Source: a virus
Length of the DNA: 29,955 nt
Strand: one strand, 5' to 3'
Virus record (IMG/VR): IMGVR_UViG_3300017740_000045
Span: 1-29,955 of that record
The position numbers and the translations under genes were made by a program. The notes below the pieces were generated by a model that saw nothing but the letters and a program-made list of their open reading frames with translations, made no database searches and was not told the DNA's origin. Position 1 is the first letter of the stretch. Each line of letters opens with the position of its first letter. Positions 1,927 to 29,636 of the stretch are shown here, piece after piece.

Positions 1927-1930
1927 TTAG
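1924..1930 (-). promoter_or_regulatory. Late-promoter-like motif CTAAATA upstream of gp15
   Basis: The minus strand reads CCCTAAATAAAG, where TAA is the gp14 stop codon. It shares TAAATA with the T4 late -10 consensus TATAAATA. It lies 37 nt before the gp15 ATG. The same CCCTAAATA string precedes gp13. Weaker than the NATAAATA matches. Confidence 0.35.
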
Positions 1931-3375
1931 GGCATCCCGAATGGGTTCTGCTCGCTAAAGTCAATTATCTTATCTGCTTCAGTCTCAATATTAATATTAT
2001 CAGCAAATCCATCATCAGCTGGTTGTGCATCAGCAACTCTAAGGGCATAAGATGCTCCAGAAGTTGCGCCAACTATATTCTCTCCAAGAGAAAATTCTCC
2101 AGTAACAGTTCCTACTTCAAGAACATTGGTTGTAGAATTCCATGTCCTAACTCTTCCAGTAGTTCCACTAGAAGATCCTGTTACTACTTCATTGAATGCG
2201 AATGTTCCAGATCCAGTACTCTCAGAATTTCCAACAACAATAGTTGGTGCGACAGAATATCCAAGACCAGCATTTGTAATATAGATATTAGTTATGGTTC
2301 CAGCAGCACTAACTACGGCAGTTGCAGCTGCCGAAACTGTAGTGACTCCTGATAAGAATATCTCATTTGTAAAATTAATTATTGGATTATCTACATATCC
2401 AGAACCACCTGATGTTATTGTTACAATACCTACAACGCCATCTCCAATTGTTGTTGTAGCAGCTGCTCCAACTCCATCCCCTCCTCCAGAAAATCTTACC
2501 CCAGGTGCTACAGTATATCCAGCACCAGAATTGGCAATATTAACTGCTTGAACTGATTGTAATTTTGGATTTGCATTTAGATTACACACGTTAATACCAC
2601 CAATCATGGTGGCAATACCAATCGCTGCTGTACCGCCCGCTGGAGCGGATGTGACGCCTACTGTAGGTACGCTACTATACCCACCACCCCTACTAGATAT
2701 GGTGAATAATCTAACGCCACCATCAAAGATAGCGGAAGTTGCTGTAGCAGTTACCCCAGCACCAACTAAAGTAAGTGTTTGTGTGGGACCTTGAATAGTA
2801 TTGATTCCATCATCAGTAGAACCATCATAATCTTCACCAATTAAATTATTATCAACTTCTTCAATTCCAGTTGCAATAACTTCATCCTCCAACTGGAAGA
2901 GTTCACAATATAATTCATAGACATAAAGATCTTGTAGTTGATAATATGGTTTTGCATATTCAACATCTTTAATTTCATAAATTCTATCATCAAGTGGAAA
3001 CCAAATAAGATCTCCAGACTTGGGTCTTGTCGATAACTTTATATTTTCCTGATCTTGAATTAATGGAGTTATATAATTCTCAAATCTCTCTCTTGAAATT
3101 ATAAGTCTTACTTCATCTTTAGATTCAATACCAAATTTTGATAGTAAATTTCCTGCTCCAGAATACTGATCATAATTGTCAATATATGCTTCAAGAGGAA
3201 GTGCTATATCAAACTTTGATTGAACTACTTCTCTGATAACAGTATTTTCTGCCAAGTATTTTCTAGGTAGATAAAAAATATCCACCCCATAAGTTCTTAG
3301 TTGTTCATTAATCAAATCCTGAACAAGATTCTGTTCAGAAGATGTGCCCTGAGTGAAAAAAGGATTTAATACCAT
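1927..3375 (-). CDS. 14: gp14 neck protein with inserted Gly-rich repeat domain
   Basis: A 482-aa homologue of T4 gp14 (256 aa), which forms the neck with gp13 and joins head to tail. The T4-like core occupies about residues 1-175. It has Y-G-V-D-I-F-Y-L-P-R-K-Y near 29-40, the N-L-L-S-K-F-G-I-E-S-K-D-E-V-R-L block near 77-92, and G-D-L-I-W-F-P-L-D-D-R-I-Y-E-I at about 121-135 (T4 G-D-L-I-Y-F-P-M-D-N). Residues of about 190-455 are an insertion with at least four repeats of the form I-x-(N/S)-x-G-x-G-Y-x-x-x-P, followed by a G-E-N-I-V-G-A-T-S-G-A module. The gp14-type tail I-N-I-E-T-E-A-D...N-P-F-G-M-P closes the protein. The ATG at 3375 overlaps the gp13 stop by one base (TAATG), indicating coupling. 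Identity is secure; the insertion is the oddity. Confidence 0.92.
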   Translation of the reverse strand: MVLNPFFTQGTSSEQNLVQDLINEQLRTYGVDIFYLPRKYLAENTVIREVVQSKFDIALPLEAYIDNYDQYSGAGNLLSKFGIESKDEVRLIISRERFENYITPLIQDQENIKLSTRPKSGDLIWFPLDDRIYEIKDVEYAKPYYQLQDLYVYELYCELFQLEDEVIATGIEEVDNNLIGEDYDGSTDDGINTIQGPTQTLTLVGAGVTATATSAIFDGGVRLFTISSRGGGYSSVPTVGVTSAPAGGTAAIGIATMIGGINVCNLNANPKLQSVQAVNIANSGAGYTVAPGVRFSGGGDGVGAAATTTIGDGVVGIVTITSGGSGYVDNPIINFTNEIFLSGVTTVSAAATAVVSAAGTITNIYITNAGLGYSVAPTIVVGNSESTGSGTFAFNEVVTGSSSGTTGRVRTWNSTTNVLEVGTVTGEFSLGENIVGATSGASYALRVADAQPADDGFADNINIETEADKIIDFSEQNPFGMP

Positions 3376-12558: not shown

Positions 12559-14112
12559 TTAGAACTGCAAAATAACTTTTATGTCTTCCTTTTGGTTTGA
12601 CGATCTTGTAATAGATGGTCTGTTATCAACGTAAATTATATTACCAGAATGTTTTTTAACCTCTGGGTTGGCAACACCACTCGCAAAGGTTTGACCAAGA
12701 TAGTATGTACGATTATTTATTACCGTAGATATACCTGAGAAGTTTTCATCAATAGTCAAATTTACTCCCGTAGATGGTGTAATTGTTAATGCTCCACCTG
12801 TTCCTGGAGATGATGTAAACTCCTCTAGACTAAATCCATATTGAGGTTGAGTCTGAGCAGTTCCTACAGTATTAAATCCGACAAGAGATCTGTCTTGCCA
12901 GTACTTAAGAACTCCAGTATTTTGATCATAACTTACAACCCTACCAACAGCTGTTGATCCTGTGGATATTGTTTGAGTGAAATACGAATCTGCAGTAAAT
13001 GTTGCAGTGCTATATCCAGATCCAACTAATTTTAATGCTCCAAGAGCACTGGCTTTATCTGCAGAGAGGATACTTGAAGATCCAAATTGCTCAGGATTTT
13101 CTACAACACCAACTCTGGCAATTTGATTTCCAGTTATAAAATCTGGATTGTTGTTATCATTTTCAATTCTAGAATACATGAGAACATTATATGCTCCCAA
13201 TTCTCTATATACATCTGCACCATGTCCACCTTGAGGTGACATTATAACATTAAAAGTTGGTCTTGTTGTTCCTGTTGGAACTCCGCCTGCTTCCAAATCA
13301 ACATTACCATATGTATAATCAGATCCTTGATTTGAAACAGTAACCCCACTTACTTGTTGATTTCCATCAATAATAATAGTGCATTCTGCTCCTGACCCAT
13401 CACCTTTAATTGGGACGGATGTGTATGTGGAGTTTGCAGTTCCAAGTCCAACACCTTTATTAGTAACAGTTACAATTTTAATTGAACCATCGACTGCATT
13501 ATCTCTGACTGCAGCATTATCAGTGGAAGTTGCCCAATCTGATGGAACAGGTAGATAATCTGTAGACTCAAATTTGGCAACATCGCTTGGTTTAATACTA
13601 AAAAGGTATTTCCAAATATAACCATCACCACTGGTTCCTGCAGATCTTGGTTCTAAATCTGTAAATGTTGGTTCATCAAGAGATGGTCTTCCGGAAGGAT
13701 TATCTACATCAAGTCCATTTTGAAGACAAATATAAACCCTAAAATCACTATTCATAACAAAATAATTTGCCAGATATAGTGATGTTGAACCGGAAACTAC
13801 AGCAGTATTGGATCTACTATAATCATGACGATACATGTCATAACTTGTTCCTGAGGACCAAACAAGTTTGGGTACAACTTGTCTTACATCAGCAGTATTG
13901 ATTTTTTTCAAGGCCACCATGGTGTCCCAATAATCATTTTCCTGATCAAAATTGTCTTTAGGTGATGGTGGATCAATATCCCAATCAACCTGATAATCTT
14001 CAGGATTAGTCAATCCAATAAAAGAATAATATGAATTGCTGGCATTAGAAACACCAGCAACAAAATTCTTTGCATTTAATATTCTAATCTGATCAGTTAT
14101 AATAGCAGCCAT
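12559..14112 (-). CDS. 8: gp8 baseplate wedge subunit with insertions
   Basis: A 517-aa homologue of T4 gp8 (334 aa), a dimeric baseplate wedge protein that binds gp7 and gp10 in T4. The G-D-G-Y-I-W-K-Y-L-F-S-I-K-P block at about residues 162-175 matches T4 G-D-G-Y-V-W-E-Y-L-F-E-I-P. The C-terminus H-S-G-N-I-I-Y-V-D-N-R-P-S-I...I-K-V-I-L-Q-F matches T4 H-S-G-E-M-I-Y-M-E-N-R-P-P-I. Two stretches have no T4 counterpart by eye. The first, residues ~205-285, carries G-D-G-S-G-A and Q-G-S-D-Y repeats. The second lies at ~345-480 between V-V-E-N-P-E-Q-F and the C-terminal block. The ATG is preceded by an AATAAATA motif and no clear ribosome site. The next gene begins 6 nt downstream. Confidence 0.92.
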   Translation of the reverse strand: MAAIITDQIRILNAKNFVAGVSNASNSYYSFIGLTNPEDYQVDWDIDPPSPKDNFDQENDYWDTMVALKKINTADVRQVVPKLVWSSGTSYDMYRHDYSRSNTAVVSGSTSLYLANYFVMNSDFRVYICLQNGLDVDNPSGRPSLDEPTFTDLEPRSAGTSGDGYIWKYLFSIKPSDVAKFESTDYLPVPSDWATSTDNAAVRDNAVDGSIKIVTVTNKGVGLGTANSTYTSVPIKGDGSGAECTIIIDGNQQVSGVTVSNQGSDYTYGNVDLEAGGVPTGTTRPTFNVIMSPQGGHGADVYRELGAYNVLMYSRIENDNNNPDFITGNQIARVGVVENPEQFGSSSILSADKASALGALKLVGSGYSTATFTADSYFTQTISTGSTAVGRVVSYDQNTGVLKYWQDRSLVGFNTVGTAQTQPQYGFSLEEFTSSPGTGGALTITPSTGVNLTIDENFSGISTVINNRTYYLGQTFASGVANPEVKKHSGNIIYVDNRPSITRSSNQKEDIKVILQF

Positions 14113-14144: not shown

Positions 14145-17100
14145 TTAAAGATCATAATTTTTAAATTTTAGGAAGTTTGATCTAACGACCATAGTCGCAG
14201 TTGAAATTCCAGATCCTTCTGCATAAGAAGAATAAGAATTTTCTTTACTTCTTGCTGCTATGTCAATTCTTCCCCAACTAAATGATCCAAAGAAGTCTGA
14301 GGTTGTAATTCCAGAGGATCCATAGTTGAATTGATTTACCTTGGCAAACACCCTACGTACATAAGTTGAAATTCCAGATATACTTGTGGAAATTGAAACT
14401 GCACTGTCAACTTCATAAACATTATCTGCAAAAACAGTTCCTAGTCCTACTGTGCTATCTGAGGCATCTAGGGATAATATAGAAGTTGAGCTAGATCCAA
14501 CATTAGAATTTTTAACAACAAAGTAATCATTTTTACTAATAGAACTAATTGTTAATGCCGTTCCTGCGATATTAGAATCTCTAAGGAAAGAATCATATGG
14601 AATGTGAATATCAAAAATAAGTTGTGTTCCAATTCCAACAGTGGTTGTCCCAAATCCAACAATTACACCATTATCTCCAGAGTAGGTATTTACAGATACC
14701 TCTTCAGTATTATGTGATGGTGGTGCGATTAAAACAACAGGAGCACTAGTATTAGTATATCCAGTTCCAGCATTGGTTATTGTTATACTTGTAACAACTC
14801 CTGCAGTAATAGATGATGTTGCGGTCGCTGTCGTTCCAAGTCCAACTGATTGAACTGTACTTCCAATAGTCACTACTGGAGCAGAACCATATCCTGATCC
14901 TCCATTAGAAATAGATATTGAGGATATTGTTCCCAATCCAGTAACAATAGCAGTTGCAGCTGCACTTACTTTGGAATCTTGTGAAATAAATTTAATTTTC
15001 TTTTGGAATGTTAAATCAGTATCATTCTCATTTTGAGAATCAAATGTTGGTCTCAAACTATCAACATATATTGCTGTAGATCCAACTCCAACAGATTTTG
15101 TAATATATGCACTAGGATTAATGACTGGTTCATAAAGTTCTCTATTTTTACCAATAGCAATCTGATCAATAAATATGTCTTCAGTCTGTTTGCACCAAAC
15201 AACTGGTCTTTCTAAAGTAACATCTTTAGTATTTCCAGGTCCAGAATATGAATTAGTTTGAACTATATTTGTAGATTTGATTAAATCCACAACTCTCTCA
15301 TCTTCATCCAAAGATGATGCTTGTCCAAGTGATGCATCATGTTTAATTTGAAGGGTATCACCCTTTTTAACAGTTTCAATTGTATTTCTAAAGATTACAT
15401 CAATATCTCCTGTTCCCTTATAGAACATAATACTAACAGAATCACCAACCTTCAATCCTTCAGTAAATGTTACAATACTTCCTCCATCAAAAGTATATCC
15501 TTCACCAGGAACTTGAAGTATGTTATTAACAAAGATAAGAAGAACATCTTGGACATTAATCTTAGATCCTTTTCCAGAAACAATTGAAATTGAGTTTCCT
15601 GCTAGAGACAGTGGGAAATTTTTTCTAGATCCATCAATAAAATCATTAATATCGTCTAAAACTTGCAATTGTCCAATAGACCAACCAGCAAATTTGTCAT
15701 TAATAACTTCATCTATGGTAATTTTAAACTCAGAGAAGGATGAAGTTGTTGGTATTCCTGTAGATCCACCAATTGGAACAGTTAATATTTCACCATTTCC
15801 AAATCCATATCCAGTATTTTTAATTGTAAAATCAATAACACTTGATCCTTGACCAACAACAATATCAACTACGGCACTGGTTCCAATACCAACGGAACTG
15901 GAAGAATATTGTAATGGAATATTTGAATAACTTAATGGGTCATCAAACACAACAAATGGTTGATTTGTTGATGTGTATCCAGACCCTGGATTTGTAATCG
16001 CTACACTTACAATATTACCACCACTAATAGCAGCGGTTCCGATAAATTCAATGTTTCCAGTTCCAGTGCTAGAAGTTCCAACACCAACATTAACTATAGT
16101 TTGAATTCCAACCCTATAACCAGAACCACTATTTCCAATACTAATCGAAGAAATAGTTCCAAGACCAGAAATTATAGCAGTTCCTCCAGCAGAAATTAGA
16201 GGTTGATATCCAAGACCTGCATCTGAACCTACTGAAACAATAATTCCCCCTTTAGGAAAACTAGAAATACCTACATCGGGACCAAGTGGAACTGTATTAG
16301 TTCCTTGGAAAGCGATTGAAGAAATACCCGATGATTCTGCAATTACGTATCCACTATTCAATCCAGGTGTTTGGAAAACATCATTAACTAAAATAACTGC
16401 ATTCTCAGTGGAAATTCCAGAAACATTTGAATCATTTTGTTCCAAAGTAAATTCGTTTGAAACAGCATTAAATTGACTTGATATATTATCAAAAATATAA
16501 TTTTTATGATAAGAATCATCAGAAGTATTTTGTACTCCAGATCTCATAAAACTTCTACCTTGGAAACTAGAACTTGTTGTTATACCAGTCCAATCTCTTT
16601 CATCTGGTGGATTTGTGGTAGATCCAATTGGAACATTTCCAAATGGTGCTTCTACAAAGTTTAAAATATTATCAATAATATTATAATTGCCAGAAATTTT
16701 AGTTACAAGAGTTCCCGTCCCATATCCAGACAAGACAGTTCCCAACCAAGGTCTACGAACTCTAATGGTATTTGTACTTCCAATACCTACACCTTCTATC
16801 TTCATAATCTCATTACCAATCTGAATAATATCAGATCCAAAGAAAGATGTAATTCCGCTAAATTTAATTACATTATCAACAGATTGAACTCGATCAGCAA
16901 GTACTGTTGTTACTGCTGTAGATACAACAGGAGACTGAATAACATTGTCAATAGCAACAATAACTTTAGCATTTTGATTTGTTGCTATGAATCTATGAGA
17001 AGTTCCAATACCAACACTTTCAAGATCTACAACTACTGGTATCGATTTGAGTGCATTTTCTGCACTGGTTGCAATTTTAATTAAATTATCATCAACTTTT

Positions 17101-20100
17101 ACAGCATATAAATTTTCATCTGGAAGGAATGTGGTGTTAGAAGTTCCAACAAAACTTGCTGTCGCAATACCAATGGCAGATGAAGCCGTTCCTACATGAT
17201 TATATCTAATTTTTTCTCCACTCACAAAGAAATGATTTGGAATTTTAATAGAGTTAGTTGTTACATTTATAACATCACTACTATTACCTAAGAAATATCT
17301 TTCAAAGATTTTTTCATTTTCATGAGTTAGTTCAAATTCTCTCTTAATATCATTATCTGTTCCAAAATATTCTCCAATAGAATCATTAATAGTTGCATTT
17401 GTAAAAGATATTTCAGATGCTAAATCAGTATTTTCATTTACAGATAAAGCATTCATGCATACATTGACCACTGTATTAATACTTGCATTTGGAGTAAATA
17501 CAAGAGATACAGTTCCTGCTGCAGAAACTCTAGATCCAAAGGTTCCAAGACCAGAAGCAGTTTCGATATTTGCATATTCAGTCATGTAAGTTTCACGACC
17601 TTGAGTAGTATCAACATAATCATCAACAACCACTATTTCAGACAACTGAATTGAAGAGTTGGTCGTATCAGTAACTTGAACTACAAAATATGCTCCATCA
17701 AAATTATTTGGATAGTCGGCAACGGTATTAATTCCAGGAGATCCCGATGAAGGTATGGTAGTAGTTCTTCCTTCAATTTGAGATCTTCTGAGATTTATTG
17801 TGCCAATTCCTGTAAAAGTATTACTAGAAAGTCCAACAACAATAGTGTTTATTGCTCCAGTTGTTGCAATACCAACAGCAGTTGGAATAAAATCTACTTT
17901 TAGATTAGTTCCGTCAATATATGCATGATATGTTCCAAGACCAGTTTCAGAATACTCTCCAATACTCGTTGACAATCTTCCATACTCTAACAATTCAATA
18001 TCAGATCCTTTATGAATAATATTTAATTCAGTTGCTTCAAATTCATCATTTCTTGAAATGTCTGGGTTAATATTAACTAGAACTTTTGCACTTGAATATG
18101 TGTGTCCAATTGAAACAATTGTCTTAGTTGTATTTGATGGTATTTCAATACTATCAGTATCAATTAGAACAACTCCACCAAGACTTGTACTGCCGGTTCC
18201 AAGTACAACATCATCCAAATTATATGAAAGTGTAGAGACATCATAATCATTAACTGAAGAGTTGACTGGGTGGAATTCCAAACGTCCATCAGTTCCAGTA
18301 ATCGAGAAGTCAAAAGAACCTTGATCATATGCAGTTTCAACTCTAGCATATTGATTCATGTATGCTCTAGAATTGTCATGAAGAAGATCAACAAGCATCA
18401 ATTGTCTTTGAGCTACAAATCTCTTATCTCTTATGTAAGTAATATATTTTTGGAATCTATTTGATGTGATTGCAAATGTATCAACAATACTAAAATCCGT
18501 TGGTCTTGGATTACTATTAAACTGACCACTAATATCATCAATTGATAAAACTCTATTTCCAATAGATTCGAAATAATCCGTTAAAATTCTATTTGAAAAT
18601 ATAATCTCATTAGAAATAAACTTAGAATTTTGAGATAAATTATTTTCAGTAACTAAATCAAAATCATAGACGCAATTTAAACTTGCAAATCCGTCAAGTT
18701 GATTGACTGCATTAACACTTGTAGTATTTGTTGTAAGTCCAACAGACATTACATTAGTGTTTTTTGTTTCCAGTTGATAATCAGAGAATTTTTTAAATCC
18801 TAAAGTATGATTGAGACTAGCAACCGAATCCTCCCAAGTGGAATATGGAACTTTTGATTTTAAAGAGTATGAGAAGTTTTGATAATAAAAACTATCTTGA
18901 ATTTTTTGAAGGTCATTATTTAAGAATCCAATATCATTTTGCCATCCTTTGATATCTTTTGAAAATGCATCTAAATTTATATAAACATCAAAACATTCTA
19001 TAGAAGATGCGATTCCTTGAGTTTTGGAACTAGATCCTTCTACAATCTCCCCAATAACAAATTTTTCAGAAGAAGAAACTCTAAGAATACCAGTTTTACT
19101 ATTCCAACTATCTACAATTCCTTTTGCCGAATCAGAAATTGCAGGTTCTCCTACAATATAATTATTTGTATTCAGTTCTACCTCAAAGGATGGAAAATGT
19201 TTCTGAGCAAGAATTTTTCCTGAAGAATTTACAGAATCAAATGTACCTACAATTTCCCCACTAGAAGTAAACTCAGACATATCAAATGATACATCTCCAA
19301 TACCACCAAGATTTTCATTGGTTGAAGTTACAGTAAACAACTGATAATCATATGCAGAAGAGTTATACCCCTTACCAGTTGATCCAACACCAACACTTAC
19401 ATTTTCAATTAAAACTTTATCTCCAGTAGTAAATGGGAAAGAATTGACTGTACTAAATCCTACGGATAAAGTTGCTGTTGCTATTCCTGAAGATGAATAA
19501 ACAATACTATTAATACCAACTCCAGCCCCACTTTCAGTTGGAATAATGGTTGGAGCAACAGCATTCATTCCTTTTGTATTTTCAAGAATCTCTACATTTG
19601 ATTTTCCTACAGTTACTTTTAAATCAACATCAGAAACAATCTTATTAGTTCTACCATCAAGAACAACTAATTTTGGAGGAATTGAAAATCCACGTCCAAA
19701 GGAAGTAATACCAATAGAATTAAACGATGCAAGAGAATTAATTTTTATAACTTGTGGTAAAATAGCGGTTGGAGTTAGAGTTTTATCAGATGGATAGTTA
19801 AATCCAATATCTTTAAGTGAAATTGATTTCACAGATCCAATACCAGAACCAACTGTTTCAAGTATTGCTCCATTACCAGCACCTGTTGTAACCGTGGTTA
19901 TTCCTGGCAGTGAGTAATAGTTTGAACCAGAATTTGTGATTTCAATTTTTGCAATTGGCCCATAAGTGTGGGTACAATCTGTTTCATAGGAAATATCAGA
20001 AGATGATCCATAGGATGATTCTTCGGGAACATCTTTAACAGAATATGTAAATGATGTAGTCGTTCCTACAGTAATTACATGTTTTCCATTGTAACCACTT

Positions 20101-23100
20101 TCTTTTGAGTTTATTTCATTTCCAGAAATAACTTCACTATCAACGAATATCCCTTCTTTGACTTCTGGAACATTAGTTTCTTTTACAACATCTAAAGTGT
20201 AATATAAAATTTGTGGAATATCTTTATTGACTGTTAATGTTGCTTTTGCACCAGAAGTTCCAACTTTACCATCTTTGATCAATTCAAAGTTGGAATTTAC
20301 TTTAGATGTATTCCAAACTTTAGTTAGATTTTTATCTGAATATAAATTAAATTCAAATGCGGAATAAGTTGTCCCTTGATTAGAGAATGCAAGCGATGGA
20401 TCTGATAAATCAAATTCAACTGTGGAATCTTTATATAAATCAATTGGTGGATTTATTGGATTGATGGTTCCATCAGAAGTACTTGTTATACTAACAACTT
20501 CTGGTTTATCTTGAATTGAGTTAAAATAAGTATTTGATAATTTTATTGTATTTCTATCTACACTGACAATATAGTATATTTTTTCATTTTCCAATCCTTC
20601 AGATGAAGTTGTGGCCGTATGAATTACCTTATCACCAGTTTCAAATCCATGATTTGGTAGTGAAATTGTATTTGTGGATGTATTGACTCCAGCAGTTGCA
20701 AATCCAATGGGATTGACTACAATTCTAGAATTATAGTCATTATATTTTACTGTTACTATACCAGTGTTTTGTGGGTTGACAGATACAAATATATTATGTG
20801 GAGAACTTAATCCATGAGTTGTTGCTGTAGAAACTGTGACCAAATTCCTTTGAACATTACCAGTAATTACATTATAGTTTGTGGTAAAACTGTGAGTATC
20901 TCCAGTACCTACTGTCCTAAAGAATAGCGTAGATGAGTCTGTATTTGCTCCTCCAACAAAACTTCCAGTAGTTCCAAGACCAACTCTAATAGTTGCGATT
21001 CCAATCAAATCTTCAGTTATTTTTGCAACAAATAATGTTTGACCATTCGTTAATGTTATTCCAACTCCAACATTGGTTTCATCTTGAACAATAATACCAT
21101 TTCCACCAGTTCCTGGAGAATATGTTAATTGATCTCCAGTGTTAAGGTTATGATTTTTGATAAAAATACTCTTAGTCGGAATAAATGCTTGAGTTGCACC
21201 AGATCCTGGATTTGCAAAAGAAATTGTTGTTCCTATCCCAACACCAGCAGTGGTTCCAAGTCCAACAGCACTTGCTGGATCAAAATAAATTTGCTTGTTT
21301 AGAGAATATGCATAATCAGTTTTAAATCCTGCATTAATTTTAATCTTTCTTGGATCTTCGTAGATGTGCTTACCGATGGTGTGAGAAGCACCTGTAGTCC
21401 CCTCTACTGCCCTCAAAACTCTAATTCTAGAGGATAGGGCATCTACGTTTAATACTTTAACTTTCTCTGTTCCAACACTAAGAATATCATTTTCTCTAAT
21501 GTTGGGATAATCTAAACTTCCATTGACTCTAAAGTAAGTGACGATACCAGTTACTCCATCAGTTCCTATAGCTACACCAGTGCTTCCTACTCCTGCTATA
21601 GTTAATCGATTAGTTTGAATTCCGGCGCTATAAGTTCCTTCAATTTGAGACGATGTTGTGGACAATCCAGAAATTGAAATCGTATCTATGTTTGTAAAAT
21701 TATGAGGATTATTGGCAAATATTAAATATTCACCTTTTTTCTCTCCAGGATAAAATTCAACATTTTCAATAATACTTGATGCAACACTAATATTACTTAC
21801 ATACTTTCCTTTTAATCTGCTTATTTTTGCAGATACATGATTTCCTCCAGTCCCATCATTATTAAATACCAACTCCTCATTAACTCTATATTCACTACCA
21901 CCAGTTGCTATACCAATACTTGAAATTTTTCCTGGAGTAGTTGCTGAAACTGTAGACGTTTGATTAAATTTATTTGGAATATACAAATATGGATATTCGG
22001 AATCTTCTTCAATTAAGTTAAGTGGTTGAGTATTTCTCTTCCATCCATTTGTTTCAATATCATAACCATCTTGATTTGATCCAAGTTCAAAATTAAATTC
22101 ATTAGGAATAGATTGATAGTTTTCTCCTATAATATATGGAAACACTGGTTCTCTATATTTTTCAAAAACTCCTGAAGTTGAAGAGAATTGATCATTAACG
22201 GTCATAAAATATGCATATGTTCCTTCTGGATAATCAGGTGTCACACAGAATCTTCCATTATTAATATCAAGTACGGAATCATCAGAAACTTCATTGTGAG
22301 TGTAATCTTCTACAAAAAATCCTTCAGGAAAAATTGAAGTTGATGGTCTACCATTTTTTAAATCTAGTTTATATCCAGACTTCATCGGGGATATTATTCC
22401 GCCAGTTTTTGTTTTATATCCATATGGTCCATAAATTGGATTGCCATCATATGCAAATCCAATAATTGGAGAGTGTTCATCTGATAGTTCTTCAACACCA
22501 TCAATTTTCTTTAAATCAGATTCTGCATAAAGAAGTTCTCCATCCTGATTTACAGAGGAAATAGATTCTCTCAACACTCTTGGGGCATATAAATGGCAGT
22601 ATTGAAGTCCATAATTGCCATCAGATATAATACCATCATCTTTAGAAAAATATGAGAAGTATTTTTGATATAGATTTACTCTCCAAGATTTGATATTTGC
22701 CTTAAACTCTGGTAGTACTTGAGTAGATCCTGAAGTAATTACATCAATTGATGTATTATCCTGAGAATATCCACCACCAGATTCTATGACATTTATAGAT
22801 ATTAAAGATCCATTCTCTACAATCGGTGTAAGAACACATCCAGAACCATCACCATTAACAATGAGGTCTGGGATTGAAAAATATTTACTACCAGAATTTA
22901 AAACAATAACTTGAACAATTCTTCCATTACTTAAAACTGGTTGGACTTGTGCATTAATACCAGAATCTAGTGTTATTTCTGGTTGATAATCCAAATTAAT
23001 AATATCAGAAGATCCATACCCAACACCAGTATTTTCAAGATGAACTGAGGTTATTTCACCTCTAACAACTGGTCGAATTTTTGCTTCAAATGTTTCTAAT

Positions 23101-26100
23101 CCTACAGAAGATATTCCAACTTTACCAATAAGACTTACTGAGATTTCTGGATAATTAAATACATGGGTTCCAACTCCAATAGAAGTTATATCAATATACT
23201 GCTTTGTTCTATAATAAAATTCTCTATCAGATTCTGACCCAATTTGGGAAAGATTAAATGAATTATCATCTACCTTAGTCACATAATATTCAGTGTTTGT
23301 AGAAAGTCCAGAAGCTATAGTTCCAACATGAGTATACTTTACAGTCTCTCCAGATTTATAATCATGATTTTCAATCTTAATTAAATTTGAAGACGTGCTG
23401 ATTCCAGATTCGGCAGATGCTGTTCTTTTCTTATTCTCATATCCAGATCCACCATCAACAATATTAATTGAATCAACGATTAATTTTTTACCTACAGATT
23501 GTAAAGAATGCCTACCAATACCATATGATGTCAAATATACTGTATTGATTCCAGAGATAGCATCTCCCTCGGTTCTATGCAATCTAACAGTTACATTATC
23601 AATAGTAGAAACAAAATATGATGAGTTAGTAACTATGCCAGCAATTCCACTTTGATCAGATGTTTTATAAATTACCTGTTCTGCATTTTTAAATTTATGA
23701 TACGTAGAAAATCCAATCCTAGATTGTGCTGATGTTGTGCCAATAACAACTTGATTTGATGATACATCTGCAAAGAAATCTGCATTATGGTTAACTTTTT
23801 TCATGTTAACTTGGCCAATTGCCCCAGATCCATTTCCACCAACAATTTTTAAAGTAGGAGTTTCTTCATAATCAAATCCAGGATCTATAATTTTAATTTC
23901 TTCAAAAGATCCAGAAACTGCAACATATCCTGTTGCTCCAGATCCAACAGAGTCTTTAATTATCAAATCAGGAACATTTATAGCATCAATATTAGTTCCT
24001 CTAGCAAGAACTTCAATATTTTCTATTTTACCATATTTAATTACATCTTTTGATTTGTAATTTAAAATTTCTACTCCATTAACTAAAATACCAGTAAAAC
24101 CAGATTTAGTTTCATTAATAGATCCATCGTCAATTGGATTAGAAATTTTTCTAAGTAATTTTTGAGGATTTAATTCTTTTCCATTGAATTGATATGGTTT
24201 AATTGTACTATTAGATACTGTAGTTTCTTCAGAAAGAGATACAAAGTTTGAGTTAAGTATATCATTTCTGCTTTTTGCAAACTTTATAGTAAATCCATCA
24301 ATTCTTTTTATAAAATACAATCCATCATCAAAAAGTCCAACACCTCTTACTTCTCTTGTAACAGAACTCCCTGACGCATCAATGTAGTTTTCACTAACAG
24401 TTTCTGCGGAATAATAAACAGTGTCTCCAGTATATAATCCATGTTCTTTTCCTGGACTAATTTTAAACTCACTTCCACTAAAAGTTCCAGAAAAAATAAC
24501 TTCTCTAATAGATAAATCTAATGGTTGTTTATTATAATTTGGAATAGATGGAGATGCAATTAAATAATCGCTACCATTTTTATATACATTACTAACATCA
24601 GTTGCATATTGGAAAATATTAGTAAAAACGTTGGATACGCCTTTCTGAATGATTCTTTTAATTTTATAAGTTAAGTTTAAATTTAAAAATCCTTGACCTT
24701 TGATAGTAAAAGACTTATTAGAAATTATATTAAATATATTTGTTTTCTTTTCATTACCTACACTTTCAATTAAATTGGCAGAATCTCCAGATTTGAAGTT
24801 ATGCTCAACATTCAAAGTTATTTTATAAGTATTATCTGATGAATCTAATAATTCTAATTTACTTACTTTGTATGAAGGTGCTACATTATAAAACCACTTA
24901 TTTGTTTTAAGGTTGTTCTCAGAGCATCCAAGAGTTGAAATATTAATAATTCCACCCTTTATTAAATTATTGGTATTTTCTACCAATTCAACATCACTTA
25001 AAACAGAGTTAACTCTGACTTTAATAATTTCATCCTGATCTAAATTAGATCTACCATATGCAAAAGTATTAACTCCTACAGTAGAAGCATCAGATATATT
25101 TCCTGTTACGTTTGTGATTCCAAAAAATTGAGTTAGAGATTTTGATGTATACGACACTACTCCTGTGGTGGTATCATCGTAACTGACATATAATTCTCCG
25201 GTAGATCCAAATCCAACGGTAGAATCTACATCAATTGATATAGAATCCGTAGATACATCTCCAATAACTTTAGTAGAAGGTTCTACTGCAAATTTACCAT
25301 ATAATGATCCATTAACATTAATATCTCTATTATATCCACCATCAAAACTAATCTTATAGAAAGTTTGACCATATCCAACCGATATTTTTTCAACATCAGT
25401 TATTGGAGAATATGCTTTCCCTATTTCACTATCAAACTTATATGCATCTTGATATAATGTTGCATTTTCTAAATTTGAAGGGTCTCCTTCTACTGCTTCT
25501 ACAACTAAACTATTAACAATTCTATATTGAGCATCAGAAGGTGCAACTAGAAAATCTCTAGGTTTAATTATTTGTACATCTTCATTATATAATGCTTTAA
25601 ATAAAATTTCAAACGATATATCTGTGCCCTTACTTAGATAAAAGTCTTTTGACTGTTTTATAAAAAGATTTTGATCTAATTCTGGAGTTAGTGATCTTTC
25701 TTCAAATCCAGGTGCTAATTGATGTTTTGTTTTTAATAAAAATTCTTTTAAAAATAAACAACTTAAGTTTTTAATTGTAGACTTATCTTTATGATCTTCA
25801 GATTCAGTTTCTTTAAATACTACTTCTTCTTTATTCAGTTCACTCTTGTATGAAGTGATTCCAACAAATCCTCTAATACATCCAGTAAACGAAAACTCAG
25901 TTTTTCCAGTATATGTAATTACTTCATCATCTATCTGCAAAAGACCATAAGAATCTGGAAACCCATTAGTTCCATATGGAGATCCTGCAACATCAACATT
26001 TATAGTTTCCGCATCAAACTCAATATCCCCATTTAACAATACAGATTCATTCAAATTTGTAGTATTATCTAATTTGATATATCTGTCAATATTTTGAATC

Positions 26101-26240
26101 AGATCAACTGGTCCACCTTGATACTCTTGCCCAAGATAATACTGTTTTAAAAATTGAGATATAAGAGGATAATCTTCCTGCACATAAGTGGGAAGTTGGT
26201 TAGATACGATAGTATTAAACTGAACTCTAGTTTCTGACAT
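14145..26240 (-). CDS. 7: Giant gp7-type baseplate wedge protein with repeat modules and YHYH domain
   Basis: An uninterrupted 4031-aa frame, about 40% of the window, between gp6 and gp8. Two blocks resemble the C-terminal third of T4 gp7 (1032 aa), the wedge initiator. One is K-D-F-Y-L-S-K-G-T-D-I-S-F-E-I-L-F-K-A-L at about residues 195-214 (T4 Y-D-F-Y-S-T-K-G-I-E-A-S-Y-K-F-L-F-K-V-L). The other is S-L-K-S-K-V-P-Y-S-T-W...H-T-L-G-F at about 2459-2480. About 2,200 residues lie between them: many HGhxxGD modules, GxGY modules and a YHYH-type domain (about 1180-1345, with I-G-F-A-Y-D-G-N-P-I-Y-G-P-Y-G-Y). A further ~1,550 residues follow, with more modules and a conserved R-S-G-V-Q-N-T block near 3240. 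The ATG at 26240 has only a weak purine-rich site upstream. Assignment to gp7 rests on synteny plus remembered motif similarity. Confidence 0.85.
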   Translation of the reverse strand: MSETRVQFNTIVSNQLPTYVQEDYPLISQFLKQYYLGQEYQGGPVDLIQNIDRYIKLDNTTNLNESVLLNGDIEFDAETINVDVAGSPYGTNGFPDSYGLLQIDDEVITYTGKTEFSFTGCIRGFVGITSYKSELNKEEVVFKETESEDHKDKSTIKNLSCLFLKEFLLKTKHQLAPGFEERSLTPELDQNLFIKQSKDFYLSKGTDISFEILFKALYNEDVQIIKPRDFLVAPSDAQYRIVNSLVVEAVEGDPSNLENATLYQDAYKFDSEIGKAYSPITDVEKISVGYGQTFYKISFDGGYNRDINVNGSLYGKFAVEPSTKVIGDVSTDSISIDVDSTVGFGSTGELYVSYDDTTTGVVSYTSKSLTQFFGITNVTGNISDASTVGVNTFAYGRSNLDQDEIIKVRVNSVLSDVELVENTNNLIKGGIINISTLGCSENNLKTNKWFYNVAPSYKVSKLELLDSSDNTYKITLNVEHNFKSGDSANLIESVGNEKKTNIFNIISNKSFTIKGQGFLNLNLTYKIKRIIQKGVSNVFTNIFQYATDVSNVYKNGSDYLIASPSIPNYNKQPLDLSIREVIFSGTFSGSEFKISPGKEHGLYTGDTVYYSAETVSENYIDASGSSVTREVRGVGLFDDGLYFIKRIDGFTIKFAKSRNDILNSNFVSLSEETTVSNSTIKPYQFNGKELNPQKLLRKISNPIDDGSINETKSGFTGILVNGVEILNYKSKDVIKYGKIENIEVLARGTNIDAINVPDLIIKDSVGSGATGYVAVSGSFEEIKIIDPGFDYEETPTLKIVGGNGSGAIGQVNMKKVNHNADFFADVSSNQVVIGTTSAQSRIGFSTYHKFKNAEQVIYKTSDQSGIAGIVTNSSYFVSTIDNVTVRLHRTEGDAISGINTVYLTSYGIGRHSLQSVGKKLIVDSINIVDGGSGYENKKRTASAESGISTSSNLIKIENHDYKSGETVKYTHVGTIASGLSTNTEYYVTKVDDNSFNLSQIGSESDREFYYRTKQYIDITSIGVGTHVFNYPEISVSLIGKVGISSVGLETFEAKIRPVVRGEITSVHLENTGVGYGSSDIINLDYQPEITLDSGINAQVQPVLSNGRIVQVIVLNSGSKYFSIPDLIVNGDGSGCVLTPIVENGSLISINVIESGGGYSQDNTSIDVITSGSTQVLPEFKANIKSWRVNLYQKYFSYFSKDDGIISDGNYGLQYCHLYAPRVLRESISSVNQDGELLYAESDLKKIDGVEELSDEHSPIIGFAYDGNPIYGPYGYKTKTGGIISPMKSGYKLDLKNGRPSTSIFPEGFFVEDYTHNEVSDDSVLDINNGRFCVTPDYPEGTYAYFMTVNDQFSSTSGVFEKYREPVFPYIIGENYQSIPNEFNFELGSNQDGYDIETNGWKRNTQPLNLIEEDSEYPYLYIPNKFNQTSTVSATTPGKISSIGIATGGSEYRVNEELVFNNDGTGGNHVSAKISRLKGKYVSNISVASSIIENVEFYPGEKKGEYLIFANNPHNFTNIDTISISGLSTTSSQIEGTYSAGIQTNRLTIAGVGSTGVAIGTDGVTGIVTYFRVNGSLDYPNIRENDILSVGTEKVKVLNVDALSSRIRVLRAVEGTTGASHTIGKHIYEDPRKIKINAGFKTDYAYSLNKQIYFDPASAVGLGTTAGVGIGTTISFANPGSGATQAFIPTKSIFIKNHNLNTGDQLTYSPGTGGNGIIVQDETNVGVGITLTNGQTLFVAKITEDLIGIATIRVGLGTTGSFVGGANTDSSTLFFRTVGTGDTHSFTTNYNVITGNVQRNLVTVSTATTHGLSSPHNIFVSVNPQNTGIVTVKYNDYNSRIVVNPIGFATAGVNTSTNTISLPNHGFETGDKVIHTATTSSEGLENEKIYYIVSVDRNTIKLSNTYFNSIQDKPEVVSITSTSDGTINPINPPIDLYKDSTVEFDLSDPSLAFSNQGTTYSAFEFNLYSDKNLTKVWNTSKVNSNFELIKDGKVGTSGAKATLTVNKDIPQILYYTLDVVKETNVPEVKEGIFVDSEVISGNEINSKESGYNGKHVITVGTTTSFTYSVKDVPEESSYGSSSDISYETDCTHTYGPIAKIEITNSGSNYYSLPGITTVTTGAGNGAILETVGSGIGSVKSISLKDIGFNYPSDKTLTPTAILPQVIKINSLASFNSIGITSFGRGFSIPPKLVVLDGRTNKIVSDVDLKVTVGKSNVEILENTKGMNAVAPTIIPTESGAGVGINSIVYSSSGIATATLSVGFSTVNSFPFTTGDKVLIENVSVGVGSTGKGYNSSAYDYQLFTVTSTNENLGGIGDVSFDMSEFTSSGEIVGTFDSVNSSGKILAQKHFPSFEVELNTNNYIVGEPAISDSAKGIVDSWNSKTGILRVSSSEKFVIGEIVEGSSSKTQGIASSIECFDVYINLDAFSKDIKGWQNDIGFLNNDLQKIQDSFYYQNFSYSLKSKVPYSTWEDSVASLNHTLGFKKFSDYQLETKNTNVMSVGLTTNTTSVNAVNQLDGFASLNCVYDFDLVTENNLSQNSKFISNEIIFSNRILTDYFESIGNRVLSIDDISGQFNSNPRPTDFSIVDTFAITSNRFQKYITYIRDKRFVAQRQLMLVDLLHDNSRAYMNQYARVETAYDQGSFDFSITGTDGRLEFHPVNSSVNDYDVSTLSYNLDDVVLGTGSTSLGGVVLIDTDSIEIPSNTTKTIVSIGHTYSSAKVLVNINPDISRNDEFEATELNIIHKGSDIELLEYGRLSTSIGEYSETGLGTYHAYIDGTNLKVDFIPTAVGIATTGAINTIVVGLSSNTFTGIGTINLRRSQIEGRTTTIPSSGSPGINTVADYPNNFDGAYFVVQVTDTTNSSIQLSEIVVVDDYVDTTQGRETYMTEYANIETASGLGTFGSRVSAAGTVSLVFTPNASINTVVNVCMNALSVNENTDLASEISFTNATINDSIGEYFGTDNDIKREFELTHENEKIFERYFLGNSSDVINVTTNSIKIPNHFFVSGEKIRYNHVGTASSAIGIATASFVGTSNTTFLPDENLYAVKVDDNLIKIATSAENALKSIPVVVDLESVGIGTSHRFIATNQNAKVIVAIDNVIQSPVVSTAVTTVLADRVQSVDNVIKFSGITSFFGSDIIQIGNEIMKIEGVGIGSTNTIRVRRPWLGTVLSGYGTGTLVTKISGNYNIIDNILNFVEAPFGNVPIGSTTNPPDERDWTGITTSSSFQGRSFMRSGVQNTSDDSYHKNYIFDNISSQFNAVSNEFTLEQNDSNVSGISTENAVILVNDVFQTPGLNSGYVIAESSGISSIAFQGTNTVPLGPDVGISSFPKGGIIVSVGSDAGLGYQPLISAGGTAIISGLGTISSISIGNSGSGYRVGIQTIVNVGVGTSSTGTGNIEFIGTAAISGGNIVSVAITNPGSGYTSTNQPFVVFDDPLSYSNIPLQYSSSSVGIGTSAVVDIVVGQGSSVIDFTIKNTGYGFGNGEILTVPIGGSTGIPTTSSFSEFKITIDEVINDKFAGWSIGQLQVLDDINDFIDGSRKNFPLSLAGNSISIVSGKGSKINVQDVLLIFVNNILQVPGEGYTFDGGSIVTFTEGLKVGDSVSIMFYKGTGDIDVIFRNTIETVKKGDTLQIKHDASLGQASSLDEDERVVDLIKSTNIVQTNSYSGPGNTKDVTLERPVVWCKQTEDIFIDQIAIGKNRELYEPVINPSAYITKSVGVGSTAIYVDSLRPTFDSQNENDTDLTFQKKIKFISQDSKVSAAATAIVTGLGTISSISISNGGSGYGSAPVVTIGSTVQSVGLGTTATATSSITAGVVTSITITNAGTGYTNTSAPVVLIAPPSHNTEEVSVNTYSGDNGVIVGFGTTTVGIGTQLIFDIHIPYDSFLRDSNIAGTALTISSISKNDYFVVKNSNVGSSSTSILSLDASDSTVGLGTVFADNVYEVDSAVSISTSISGISTYVRRVFAKVNQFNYGSSGITTSDFFGSFSWGRIDIAARSKENSYSSYAEGSGISTATMVVRSNFLKFKNYDL
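22180..22710 (-). other. YHYH-type domain within the gp7-like protein
   Basis: Residues of about 1180-1345 contain I-I-G-F-A-Y-D-G-N-P-I-Y-G-P-Y-G-Y and, about 55 residues later, L-D-I-N-N-G-R-F-C-V-T-P followed by P-E-G-T-Y-A-Y-F. This is the layout of the YHYH family (G-x-A-x-D-G-x-P-I-Y-G-P-Y ... N-G-x-x ... Y-H-Y-H). The histidines of the naming motif are replaced, giving Y-A-Y-F, so any metal- or ligand-binding role of those residues is probably absent. Domain limits are approximate. Confidence 0.65.
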
Positions 26241-26257
26241 GTTATGATTTTATCTTC

Positions 26258-28342
26258 TTAGTATGAGATTGAACCTGATGAGGATGATCCAGATGTAGAT
26301 ATGGATGTTTGTGTTGATGTTTGTGTTGATGTGGATGCCTGTTGAGTAACTACATTAGAAGTAGAAGCAGAAGAACCTCCAACTCCATTTCCAGTTACAA
26401 TATTTGTATCCGGACCCCCAGAACGGACTAGATTACCATTTGAGTAACTAGAAGATACAATATAACTTGATGCAGATGGATCTAATCCAGATGCTATATC
26501 ATCAACAACAGTTTCAAAAATACTGCTACTTATATCTAGTTGCAAATAAAGATCCTGTAATCCAACAACATCATTTGAAGTTGGAGTTGCTTCAATTTCA
26601 ATAACTGATTGACCATCTTTAGTCTTTCCAGCCAAAACATTTACTGGATTTAAAGTAACAGTGCCACTTACATAATTAATTGTTCCAACATTACGTCTTA
26701 CAATAGTTGGTGTTTGAGACCCTACTGATGGTAATGTGAACAAGAACAAAGATCCTGTTACTCTATTTGTATCAGGTATATCTGATAGATATACATTTGA
26801 TTGAACTCCAGCAATTCTAAATGCTGAAGTCTTAATGTTATACCCACTCATATTTTTAATATGAAAAGAATTTCCAAAAGAAATTTGATATTCTGCGAAA
26901 GTGTCTAAAACAACTCTCAAATCTCTTCTCATTGCCACAGTTGTGATATTTGAAGTCACTGATTCATGACTATCATCAACCATTTTTAAGAATTTACTAT
27001 ACTTAAATCTTGCACCATATTTGTTTAGCTCAGTTGACTCAGAATATTTTGTCGTATTGTTTTGAACAATAGTAGAAACATATGCAGATGATGGTGCAAA
27101 ATTAGTATTGTAGTAAATTTTTGTATTTACTTCCAGATACAAATATTTCAAATCTAAAATCTCTGGTACAATACCAGCAACAGAATATTTCTTCAATTTT
27201 GTTTTAATATTTTCTTTGATCAAATTAGGAATAAAATCACCAAATCTTGGTTTAATACTAATGAATACCTTACCATATTGTGGTGGAACTAATTCCTCAC
27301 CACCAAAAACAGAGATTGATTCAGTTTCTGGATAAATTTTTGCGGGAATAATCGTTTCATAGTCATTTGCAGTTAATGCTCTATTCTGAGAAGCATAAAT
27401 TCTTGGTGCAAACTTCTTAATCGACTCTACACCTTCAATAGATTCTCCCCCAGATGCAGATATTCCTGTAGTTAGAAGTGAAATACCAGCAGTTACTGTA
27501 TATTCTTGAGAATTTCTTGTATAAACCAATCTTCCTGCAAAAGTAAATTGATTTACTCCATTTGCAGCATCACCACTAGATGTAATATAATTTACAGTAA
27601 TAAAATTATTATCTTCAAGTTTATTTCCAAAAATACCATCACCAAAAATAACTTGATATCTTTCATCTTCAACTTCTTGAAGGTAATATACTTTAGAATC
27701 AGATTTGATGTCAAAAAGACTATCTTGGCGACTATATGTTACACTCTTAGTTGATTGTTCATTTGGTCTTACACTAACTGATATTAGATTAGTATCAATT
27801 CCTGGATTTTGTAAAACAAACTTTTGATTTGGAGTTCTTGCACTATTTGTAAAGTTTGAAGTTAATAGACTTCCTTCGTATATGAAAATATCATTAAATG
27901 ATGCAATAGAATCAACAACAGGGACTGTTATATCTTCTAGTATACAGAAAGTATATGACTGCCTACCAAAAGAACCTTGACTAGTAGATACAATACCTTT
28001 CTTAAGAGTGATTGTACTAGGTACAGGTGTTATATTTGATGTATCAACGAAAAAACTAACAGTTGATGATGCTGCTTTTCTTGATCTGGGAAGATATCCA
28101 ATATTTCTTGCTAAAGATACGACATTCTCTCTTAATGTCGCACTATCAATAAACACTTCGTTTGCGACCATGTTCGCATTGTATGAAGTGATGTAGGTGT
28201 TATATGCCAAAACATCGAGGATTGTTGAAAGGTTAGACCCTTCAAAATCATAGTCAGTGAAATTGGAGTTTTCCTTTAGATATTCTCTAAGTGTTGTTTT
28301 AACCTGACCAAAGTCTAGGTTTGTGAAATTAGCTAGTGGCAT
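26258..28342 (-). CDS. 6: gp6 baseplate wedge subunit
   Basis: A 694-aa homologue of T4 gp6 (660 aa), the wedge backbone that dimerises to join neighbouring wedges and surround the central hub. The N-terminal signature F-T-D-Y-D-F-E-G-S-N-L-S-T-I-L-D-V-L-A-Y at about residues 27-46 continues with N-T-Y-I and is nearly identical in pattern to T4 F-L-D-Y-D-F-E-G-S-R-L. L-A-R-N-I-G-Y-L-P-R-S near 77-87 matches T4 A-Q-D-N-G-Y-L-P-T-S. A-L-T-A-N-D-Y-E-T-I near 323-332 is also family-typical. The last ~55 residues form a Ser/Thr/Gln/Gly-rich tail encoded partly by a 12-bp tandem repeat; T4 gp6 has no such tail. It starts 2 nt after gp25, with the AGG of the gp25 C-terminus as ribosome site. Confidence 0.95.
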   Translation of the reverse strand: MPLANFTNLDFGQVKTTLREYLKENSNFTDYDFEGSNLSTILDVLAYNTYITSYNANMVANEVFIDSATLRENVVSLARNIGYLPRSRKAASSTVSFFVDTSNITPVPSTITLKKGIVSTSQGSFGRQSYTFCILEDITVPVVDSIASFNDIFIYEGSLLTSNFTNSARTPNQKFVLQNPGIDTNLISVSVRPNEQSTKSVTYSRQDSLFDIKSDSKVYYLQEVEDERYQVIFGDGIFGNKLEDNNFITVNYITSSGDAANGVNQFTFAGRLVYTRNSQEYTVTAGISLLTTGISASGGESIEGVESIKKFAPRIYASQNRALTANDYETIIPAKIYPETESISVFGGEELVPPQYGKVFISIKPRFGDFIPNLIKENIKTKLKKYSVAGIVPEILDLKYLYLEVNTKIYYNTNFAPSSAYVSTIVQNNTTKYSESTELNKYGARFKYSKFLKMVDDSHESVTSNITTVAMRRDLRVVLDTFAEYQISFGNSFHIKNMSGYNIKTSAFRIAGVQSNVYLSDIPDTNRVTGSLFLFTLPSVGSQTPTIVRRNVGTINYVSGTVTLNPVNVLAGKTKDGQSVIEIEATPTSNDVVGLQDLYLQLDISSSIFETVVDDIASGLDPSASSYIVSSSYSNGNLVRSGGPDTNIVTGNGVGGSSASTSNVVTQQASTSTQTSTQTSISTSGSSSSGSISY
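26304..26327 (-). repeat. 12-bp tandem repeat in the gp6 C-terminal tail
   Basis: Two perfect tandem copies of gatgtttgtgtt (plus strand), with a partial third copy adjoining, encode Gln-Thr-Ser-Thr repeats. The unit is a multiple of three, so copy-number slippage would change tail length without breaking the frame. Confidence 0.8.
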
Positions 28343-28786: not shown

Positions 28787-28963
28787 TCAAAATTCATTGA
28801 GTGTCATTGGATCAGTCTCTGAGATGACTTCATCAACCTCAAAAAGGTCAGTTTCCTTAAGGGAATCACGTTTTTTGGGTGTCTGATTGTCATTTGCAAT
28901 CTCACGAAGCATCTTCTGATGCTGATTATTCGCTAAATTGTCTAAAAAATCATGATTTTCCAT
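28787..28963 (-). CDS. Small acidic protein, unknown function
   Basis: A 58-aa protein starting MENHDFLDNLANNQHQKMLR and ending D-P-M-T-L-N-E-F. It is hydrophilic and acidic overall, with a basic patch (P-K-K-R) in the middle and no Cys, membrane segment or signal peptide. The frame is open further upstream to 29110, but that part lies within the 228-aa gene in another frame. The ATG at 28963 has a good AGAGGA site, so this start is preferred. It overlaps the end of the 228-aa gene by 14 nt. I do not recognise a family. Confidence 0.75.
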   Translation of the reverse strand: MENHDFLDNLANNQHQKMLREIANDNQTPKKRDSLKETDLFEVDEVISETDPMTLNEF

Positions 28964-29636
28964 CAGTTTCCTCTGTTTTTGGTAGATTTTCTCTTTCTTT
29001 TGCTGTTTTCCAAAAATATTCGTCTTCACGACCCATTCCAAGTCTCTCAAAACCATTTTCAACTTGGTAATATTCAGTCGAAACCTTAAAATCAGGCATT
29101 TTTGGTTCAACAGGTGTTAAACTATTATCAAAAATACGCATTCTATTATTTGGATACAATGCATATTGCCCATTATCTAGTTCGATTAGATTATGTGACT
29201 TATGTTCTGCTGGATTCTCACTTGTTGCATAATCAATCACATCAGGATCTTGATGATAGTTGTCTAATGTACAAACATATGTACCTTTCTGTATGCCAAA
29301 GTCTCTTGTATACAATTCATAGTCCATACTACCAATAAATTGCTTACATGTTGCAACAACACCATAATCCATACAGTTCCAGAACTGTAGGTTAGGAAGG
29401 TCCATATCGGGGTCTGGGACCTCTGGAGACGAGAGGAAGGCACTAATAGGTAGTTTATCATACATTGCGGCATATTCAGGTAAATATGTCTCAAAATAAA
29501 AAGTGCGCCCAGGCATCGATTTACACGATACCCAAACGCCTTTTACAAATTCACCATGACCACTTTGATGGTCAGTTAGATATTCTTTACGTACCCATAC
29601 TTCCACTGCAGGAAGATTGCATATAAGTGCAGCCAT
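28950..29636 (-). CDS. Conserved cyanophage-type protein, unknown function
   Basis: A 228-aa soluble protein starting MAALICNLPAVEVWVRKEYL, rich in aromatic residues and Asp/Tyr. Distinct blocks are P-G-R-T-F-Y-F-E-T-Y-L-P-E-Y near residues 43-56, Q-F-W-N-C-M-D-Y-G-V near 84-93, G-T-Y-V-C-T-L-D-N-Y-H near 118-128, and H-N-L-I-E-L-D-N-G-Q-Y-A-L-Y-P-N-N-R near 147-164. The overall pattern is one I associate with a conserved T4-like cyanophage protein of unknown function. No enzymatic motif or membrane segment is evident. It lies upstream of gp25, separated by the 58-aa gene. There is no strong ribosome site before the ATG. Being next to structural genes makes a virion or assembly role possible but unproven. 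Confidence 0.85.
   Translation of the reverse strand: MAALICNLPAVEVWVRKEYLTDHQSGHGEFVKGVWVSCKSMPGRTFYFETYLPEYAAMYDKLPISAFLSSPEVPDPDMDLPNLQFWNCMDYGVVATCKQFIGSMDYELYTRDFGIQKGTYVCTLDNYHQDPDVIDYATSENPAEHKSHNLIELDNGQYALYPNNRMRIFDNSLTPVEPKMPDFKVSTEYYQVENGFERLGMGREDEYFWKTAKERENLPKTEETDGKS
28969..28974 (-). promoter_or_regulatory. Ribosome binding site AGAGGA for the 58-aa gene
   Basis: The minus strand reads AGAGGAAACTG directly before the ATG ending at 28963, inside the 3' end of the 228-aa gene. It decides the start over the longer upstream open frame. Confidence 0.65.

Follow-up and report, generated by a model that had tools for sequence, protein, structure and literature searches.

Here we describe a YHYH-family domain (PF14240) in a giant baseplate protein encoded by the IMG/VR virus record IMGVR_UViG_3300017740_000045, positions 1 to 29,955 of which were analysed (hereafter the window, that is, the whole stretch of 29,955 bases). 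The domain is carried by a 4,031-residue open reading frame (ORF; 14145–26240, minus strand), which is open over its full length in the window ORF list and matches phrog_2885, 'baseplate wedge subunit', with 3861 bits. It is flanked by gp6-like (26258–28342; phrog_219) and gp8-like (12559–14112; phrog_438) genes and occupies the position of gp7 in T4-type phages, between gp6 and gp8. From the ORF, the phrog_2885 match and the gene order, we refer to it as the gp7-position wedge protein. PF14240 is the sole Pfam match of this ORF (79.6 bits against a cut-off of 25; E 3.8e-22) and the only PF14240 site in the window; it spans residues 1254–1352, which correspond to profile positions 90–186 of 193 and nucleotides 22185–22484. 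A profile match delimits a core at residues 1185–1377 (22110–22688, minus strand), supported by PF14240, hhalign and AlphaFold2, in which the family motifs HSPIIGxAYDG, LDxxNGR and GTYAYF are all present. The first of these reads HSPIIGFAYDG (1256–1266; 22443–22475, minus strand) and retains H1256 and D1265 in the profile-based count. An initial annotation of this DNA had placed a YHYH-family domain in a phage baseplate protein, and both this assignment and the letters on which it drew (HSPIIGFAYDGNPIYGPYGY and GTYAYF) are borne out. Its span of 22180–22710 approximates the core but does not take in the N-terminal half, which is at 23979–24278.

The same annotation held that YAYF replaces the YHYH motif, with loss of both of its naming histidines (letters 2 and 4). 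GTYAYF (1340–1345; 22206–22223, minus strand) is ruled out as a changed YHYH site: it aligns with the GTYAYF of cellular proteins whose histidines are intact, and is an ordinary C-terminal motif of the family, with Tyr, Tyr and Phe in 77/77 cellular rows. When the cellular rows were pooled with a 579-residue YHYH protein of Cyanophage S-RIM14 (L085), both Tyr of the GTYAYF-like motif were found in 86/86 and the Phe in 85/86; GT(Y/F)AYF is also present in all 13 phage rows with both naming histidines intact. In a Deinococcus YHYH protein, in L085 and in 85/85 cellular rows, YHxH itself precedes the HSPIIG region. An hhalign comparison of 62 gp7-type with 55 cellular rows (probability 100, E 7.6e-54) pairs Q-Y-C-H-L-Y-A-P of the window with N-Y-H-H-H-Q-N-P, and GTYAYF with GTYAYF, and a MAFFT alignment gives the same register. 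The true YHYH position is Y-C-H-L (1214–1217; 22590–22601, minus strand), ~125 residues upstream of GTYAYF. Here C1215 and L1217 stand in place of the naming histidines, and H1216 corresponds to the variable third letter of YHxH. Both naming histidines are thus absent, as had been claimed, at Y-C-H-L rather than at YAYF; the true site does lie elsewhere in the domain and it, too, lacks the pair. Because Y-C-H-L takes the place of the YHxH that in PF14240 precedes HSPIIGxAYDG, we class the window domain, by alignment, as a divergent, motif-less descendant of PF14240 YHYH.

To place this change among relatives, 337 matches were examined, of which 42 identical and 23 incomplete ones were dropped and 272 were counted for histidines and for domain continuity. 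From the profile-based residue count, 40 phage rows were removed as identical and 23 rows as incomplete (11 phage, 8 cellular and 4 filed as phageN). Counts for the HSP His and the YDG Asp are profile-based only, as the text-pattern row finder forces the YDG Asp and limits the HSP letter; it did not catch the Deinococcus protein, which is without the HSP His. A grouping by flank similarity was dropped, as it mixed repeat-bearing stand-alone proteins with gp7. Cellular rows, mostly from Bacteroidota and taken from the best 80 of 551 matches of one scan, carry the GHP His, both naming histidines, the HSP His and the YDG Asp in 77/77 cases, and in 77/77 the naming histidines come with a contiguous domain. 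Among phage rows with a contiguous domain (n = 26), both naming histidines occur in 11 and one or both in 19. The domain is split in 157 phage rows, including the window, and 156 of these have neither; the single row with both (L196) has an insert of a different kind. The GHP His, the third conserved histidine and likewise missing in the window, is found in 3/157 split rows. A further 12 rows show no visible N-terminal half (at least 8 of them have little upstream sequence), and one of these (L175) has both naming histidines. By contrast with these losses, the HSP His and YDG Asp are present in 180/180 phage rows outside an earlier list of N-half-bearing rows, and the EDY Asp, LD Asp and NGR Arg in 179/180; among cellular rows the HSP His is present in 84/85. 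The window thus lacks three of four cellular-invariant histidines and keeps H1256, together with the Asp.

The histidines appear to have been lost together. In 20 stand-alone or N-half-bearing phage rows, the GHP His and the second naming His are both present in 6, the latter alone in 1, and neither in 13 (Fisher p 1.8e-4), and the two naming histidines are associated with each other (p 0.003); as the rows are related, these p values are a guide only. Such linked loss is as expected of one site. In a tree of 110 of 269 rows, with the motif columns excluded, 46 of 49 gp7-type rows, including the window, fall into one group (SH-like approximate likelihood ratio test, 88); the three outside, then called gp7-type, are L088, L206 and L250. 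L175 and L196 had been reassigned by hand to the stand-alone set before the tree and the co-occurrence count. Loss of the naming histidines is a trait of the gp7-type lineage and not of the window phage alone. In the other phage group of the tree, intact and changed YHxH sites are intermingled, which makes repeated loss of the site probable. A YHYH protein on a contig titled as a Euryarchaeota metagenome-assembled genome (L093) groups with phage proteins in the tree; the bin may have included a viral contig.

The domain is also split in sequence. That gp7-type rows lack the N-terminal half was considered and rejected, as the half lies beyond the first ~150–170 residues upstream. A first profile of this half, built from cellular rows and six phage loci, places it immediately ahead of the core in cellular rows (gap −25 to 60). 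In 148 other phage ORFs, which are mostly S-RIM14-type gp7 (scoring roughly 40–55 bits), the median distance to the core is 241 residues, and in 16 window-type relatives (10–20 bits) the half lies ~450 residues upstream of the core; the window itself scores only 4.7 bits, at 705–729. An iterated profile from which the window was excluded gives 99.3 bits at 655–759, a score inherited from close relatives of the window in that profile, and no more than 7.6 bits for any of 200 shuffles or for one reversed copy. In profile–profile comparisons, the half of S-RIM14-type proteins matches that of cellular proteins (E 2.3e-14) and the window type matches the S-RIM14 type (E 3.3e-18), whereas the window type compared directly with cellular rows gives E 4.7e-4 at a probability of only 32. 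The window half is tied by these comparisons to the cellular half by way of intermediates. Its clear part, piece B, comprises residues 655–754 (23979–24278, minus strand) and contains TGILVNGVEILNYK; a possible first piece A at 529–573 (24522–24656, minus strand; 10.4 bits in the iterated profile, weak) would be separated from it by a second insert, at 574–654. Between piece B and the core, which are contiguous in PF14240, the window has a gap of 426 residues, filled by an insert of ~430 residues of recurring repeat modules (755–1184; 22689–23978, minus strand). With composition correction off, blastp of 755–1182 matches further regions of the giant protein itself, at E values as low as 2.4e-10, and gives weak matches to the window's Hc2-like (E 1e-4) and gp8-like (E 3.4e-5) proteins. 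These two (Hc2-like, 1927–3375, and gp8-like, 12559–14112, both minus strand) seem to have the repeat modules of the giant protein too. The two halves of the domain may pack together.

Inserts of another kind occur in relatives. A 1,186-residue ORF of S-RIM14 (L088/L089) and L196 carry, within the YHYH domain or next to it, an inserted segment that has a C-x2-H-type motif. This segment resembles a cupredoxin; Pfam gave no match for it up to E 1. In L088/L089 it splits the domain, and the YHYH site reads YYYT.

The lost histidines and large inserts could mark a decaying remnant without a role. However, the core motifs are kept at several sites in 179–180 of 180 phage rows, which needs purifying selection, and we consider decay highly improbable. 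A search of 50,697 phage records gave 463 with the core and 491 with the protein's first 300 residues. The group totals for core and protein start are nearly the same (Synechococcus 372/373, Cyanophage 61/61, Prochlorococcus 24/24, Marine 5/5), and the records matched by the core are cyanophage and marine ones plus one Actinomycetia record. Identity among 40 relatives is 73% at residues 1251–1300 and 79% at 1301–1350, the highest of 40 bins, with 50% to 74% in the other bins; these relatives were picked by similarity to the YHYH domain, which biases the comparison in its favour. Core conservation and record counts close to those of gp7 are unlike a fast-changing receptor binder or host-range determinant.

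This pattern also bears on whether the domain is a carbohydrate- or receptor-binding module of the baseplate. One phage protein (L206) joins a PF14240 domain to seven matched stretches of CBM_5_12, YHYH is placed among domains linked to carbohydrate binding in the part of PMC7029224 available to us, and a common glycan could fit a conserved pocket. Yet few parts of the protein are as conserved as the core, which also matches nearly the same number of cyanophage records as gp7 does, and neither Foldseek nor VIA-align matched a lectin fold, an absence that is weak evidence. We regard a binding module of this kind as unlikely.

AlphaFold2 models of the core (predicted local distance difference test (pLDDT) 87.7, predicted template modelling score (pTM) 0.80) and of a Flavobacterium YHYH protein (pLDDT 89.1, pTM 0.84) arrange their elements around the motif in a similar order. 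Against BFVD, the core model matched predicted viral YHYH proteins, including a 573-residue one of S-RIM14 (E 5.3e-11, TMq 0.48 over 132 columns) that, judged from its size, is probably L085. Proteins of Mimiviridae and Megaviridae with predicted YHYH domains were also among the BFVD matches. YHYH is widespread; no solved relative was found here by sequence search of the PDB, and Foldseek returned no PDB chain at E up to 0.001 for either model. VIA-align reached Z 2.2 at most for the cellular model and gave no match as high as 2 for the core; absence of Foldseek and VIA-align matches does not mean a new fold. An NCBIfam search with the core found nothing.

An enzymatic role has been predicted for phage YHYH domains, as Zn-dependent tail hydrolases with three His and an Asp, the example being AOO14285.1 (PMC7824862, 2021, as far as the text was accessible). 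In the window, this would make the domain a tail-associated, metal-dependent hydrolase that binds Zn and cleaves the host envelope. The example, the gp7-position structural protein of Cyanophage S-RIM14 (L083/L087), belongs to the same protein family, H1256 and D1265 are in all rows and H1216 is in most. However, AOO14285.1 itself has Y-A-H-L at the YHYH site, so the only explicit enzymatic prediction that we found, in the part of PMC7824862 seen, rests on an example without the naming histidines. The window, moreover, has lost the GHP His and both YHxH histidines; with one (H1256) of the four cellular-invariant histidines left, any triad drawn from them is broken. We consider the hydrolase distinctly unlikely, and an annotation of 'YHYH domain' on cyanophage gp7 is not to be taken as enzymatic. 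The accessible parts of the literature on the YHYH domain and PF14240 gave no mention of His loss or of a split, and PMC11992049, in the part seen, merely lists the family among diatom Pfams.

We favour, with a probability of roughly 0.55, a domain without its ancestral metal site that now serves as a structural or docking module of the wedge, because three linked histidines are lost, inserts are large, the core is conserved and the numbers of cyanophage records with the core and with gp7 are nearly equal. The domain descends from the YHYH family and was probably once a metal-binding secreted one; in cellular members the invariant GHP His and the two YHxH histidines probably form the metal site; linked loss and the prediction of PMC7824862, as far as seen, suggest that these three bind metal. 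All three have been lost in the gp7-type wedge protein, with rare exceptions for the GHP His, while the fold-defining core (HSPIIGxAYDGxPxYG, EDY, LDxxNGR and TPxYPxGTYAYF) was retained and inserts of beta-repeat modules opened the domain between its halves. Its present role would most likely be that of a rigid structural or docking node from which the repeat modules are looped out. Several points weigh against this. H1216, H1256 and D1265 are still present, which leaves room for another metal site; the carbohydrate-binding modules of L206 fit a binding role; and the choice of the 40 relatives favours the domain. The earlier suggestion that the domain may have become binding rather than catalytic or metal-binding survives, on a new basis: Y-C-H-L, GHP loss and lineage-wide His loss replace the motif evidence first given.

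More tentatively, and at somewhat worse than even odds, a secreted metal-site domain may have been captured into the baseplate, have lost its site early in the gp7-type lineage and have been made into a scaffold by nested repeat inserts. If so, one ancient domain would fold from pieces spread over ~850 residues, holding repeat arms out from the wedge.

On a Deinococcus plasmid (L082, 2425–4501), a gene of the HupE/UreJ family comes next after a YHYH protein gene, a possible metal link. In the window, an ORF adjoining the baseplate genes (28950–29636, minus strand) matches phrog_3704 (ferredoxin).

T4 gp7 shares with the window protein its position relative to gp6-like and gp8-like genes, but has 1,032 residues against 4,031. 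The first 450 residues of the window protein show a weak local match to T4 gp7 726–758 (E 0.007, one sequence), and a 16-row profile of the N-terminal region gave no match to T4 gp7. Cellular secreted members of PF14240, such as a Flavobacterium protein (L109) with a type IX secretion system sorting domain, have the core motifs in common with the window; they differ in their intact GHP and YHxH histidines and contiguous halves, neither of which the window has. AOO14285.1 is a protein of the same type whose domain is likewise split; S-RIM14-type rows have a shorter insert than the window (by the group median given above) and an N-terminal half that is more easily recognised. S-RIM14 also encodes L085, whose C-terminal region resembles PHA depolymerase below the model cut-off (29.7 of 150 bits). 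L085 shares the YHYH domain and the same C-terminal GTYAYF with the window but, unlike it, has a contiguous domain with HYHYH intact. Contiguous domains with histidines and split ones without them thus provide a natural comparison for the role of these histidines.
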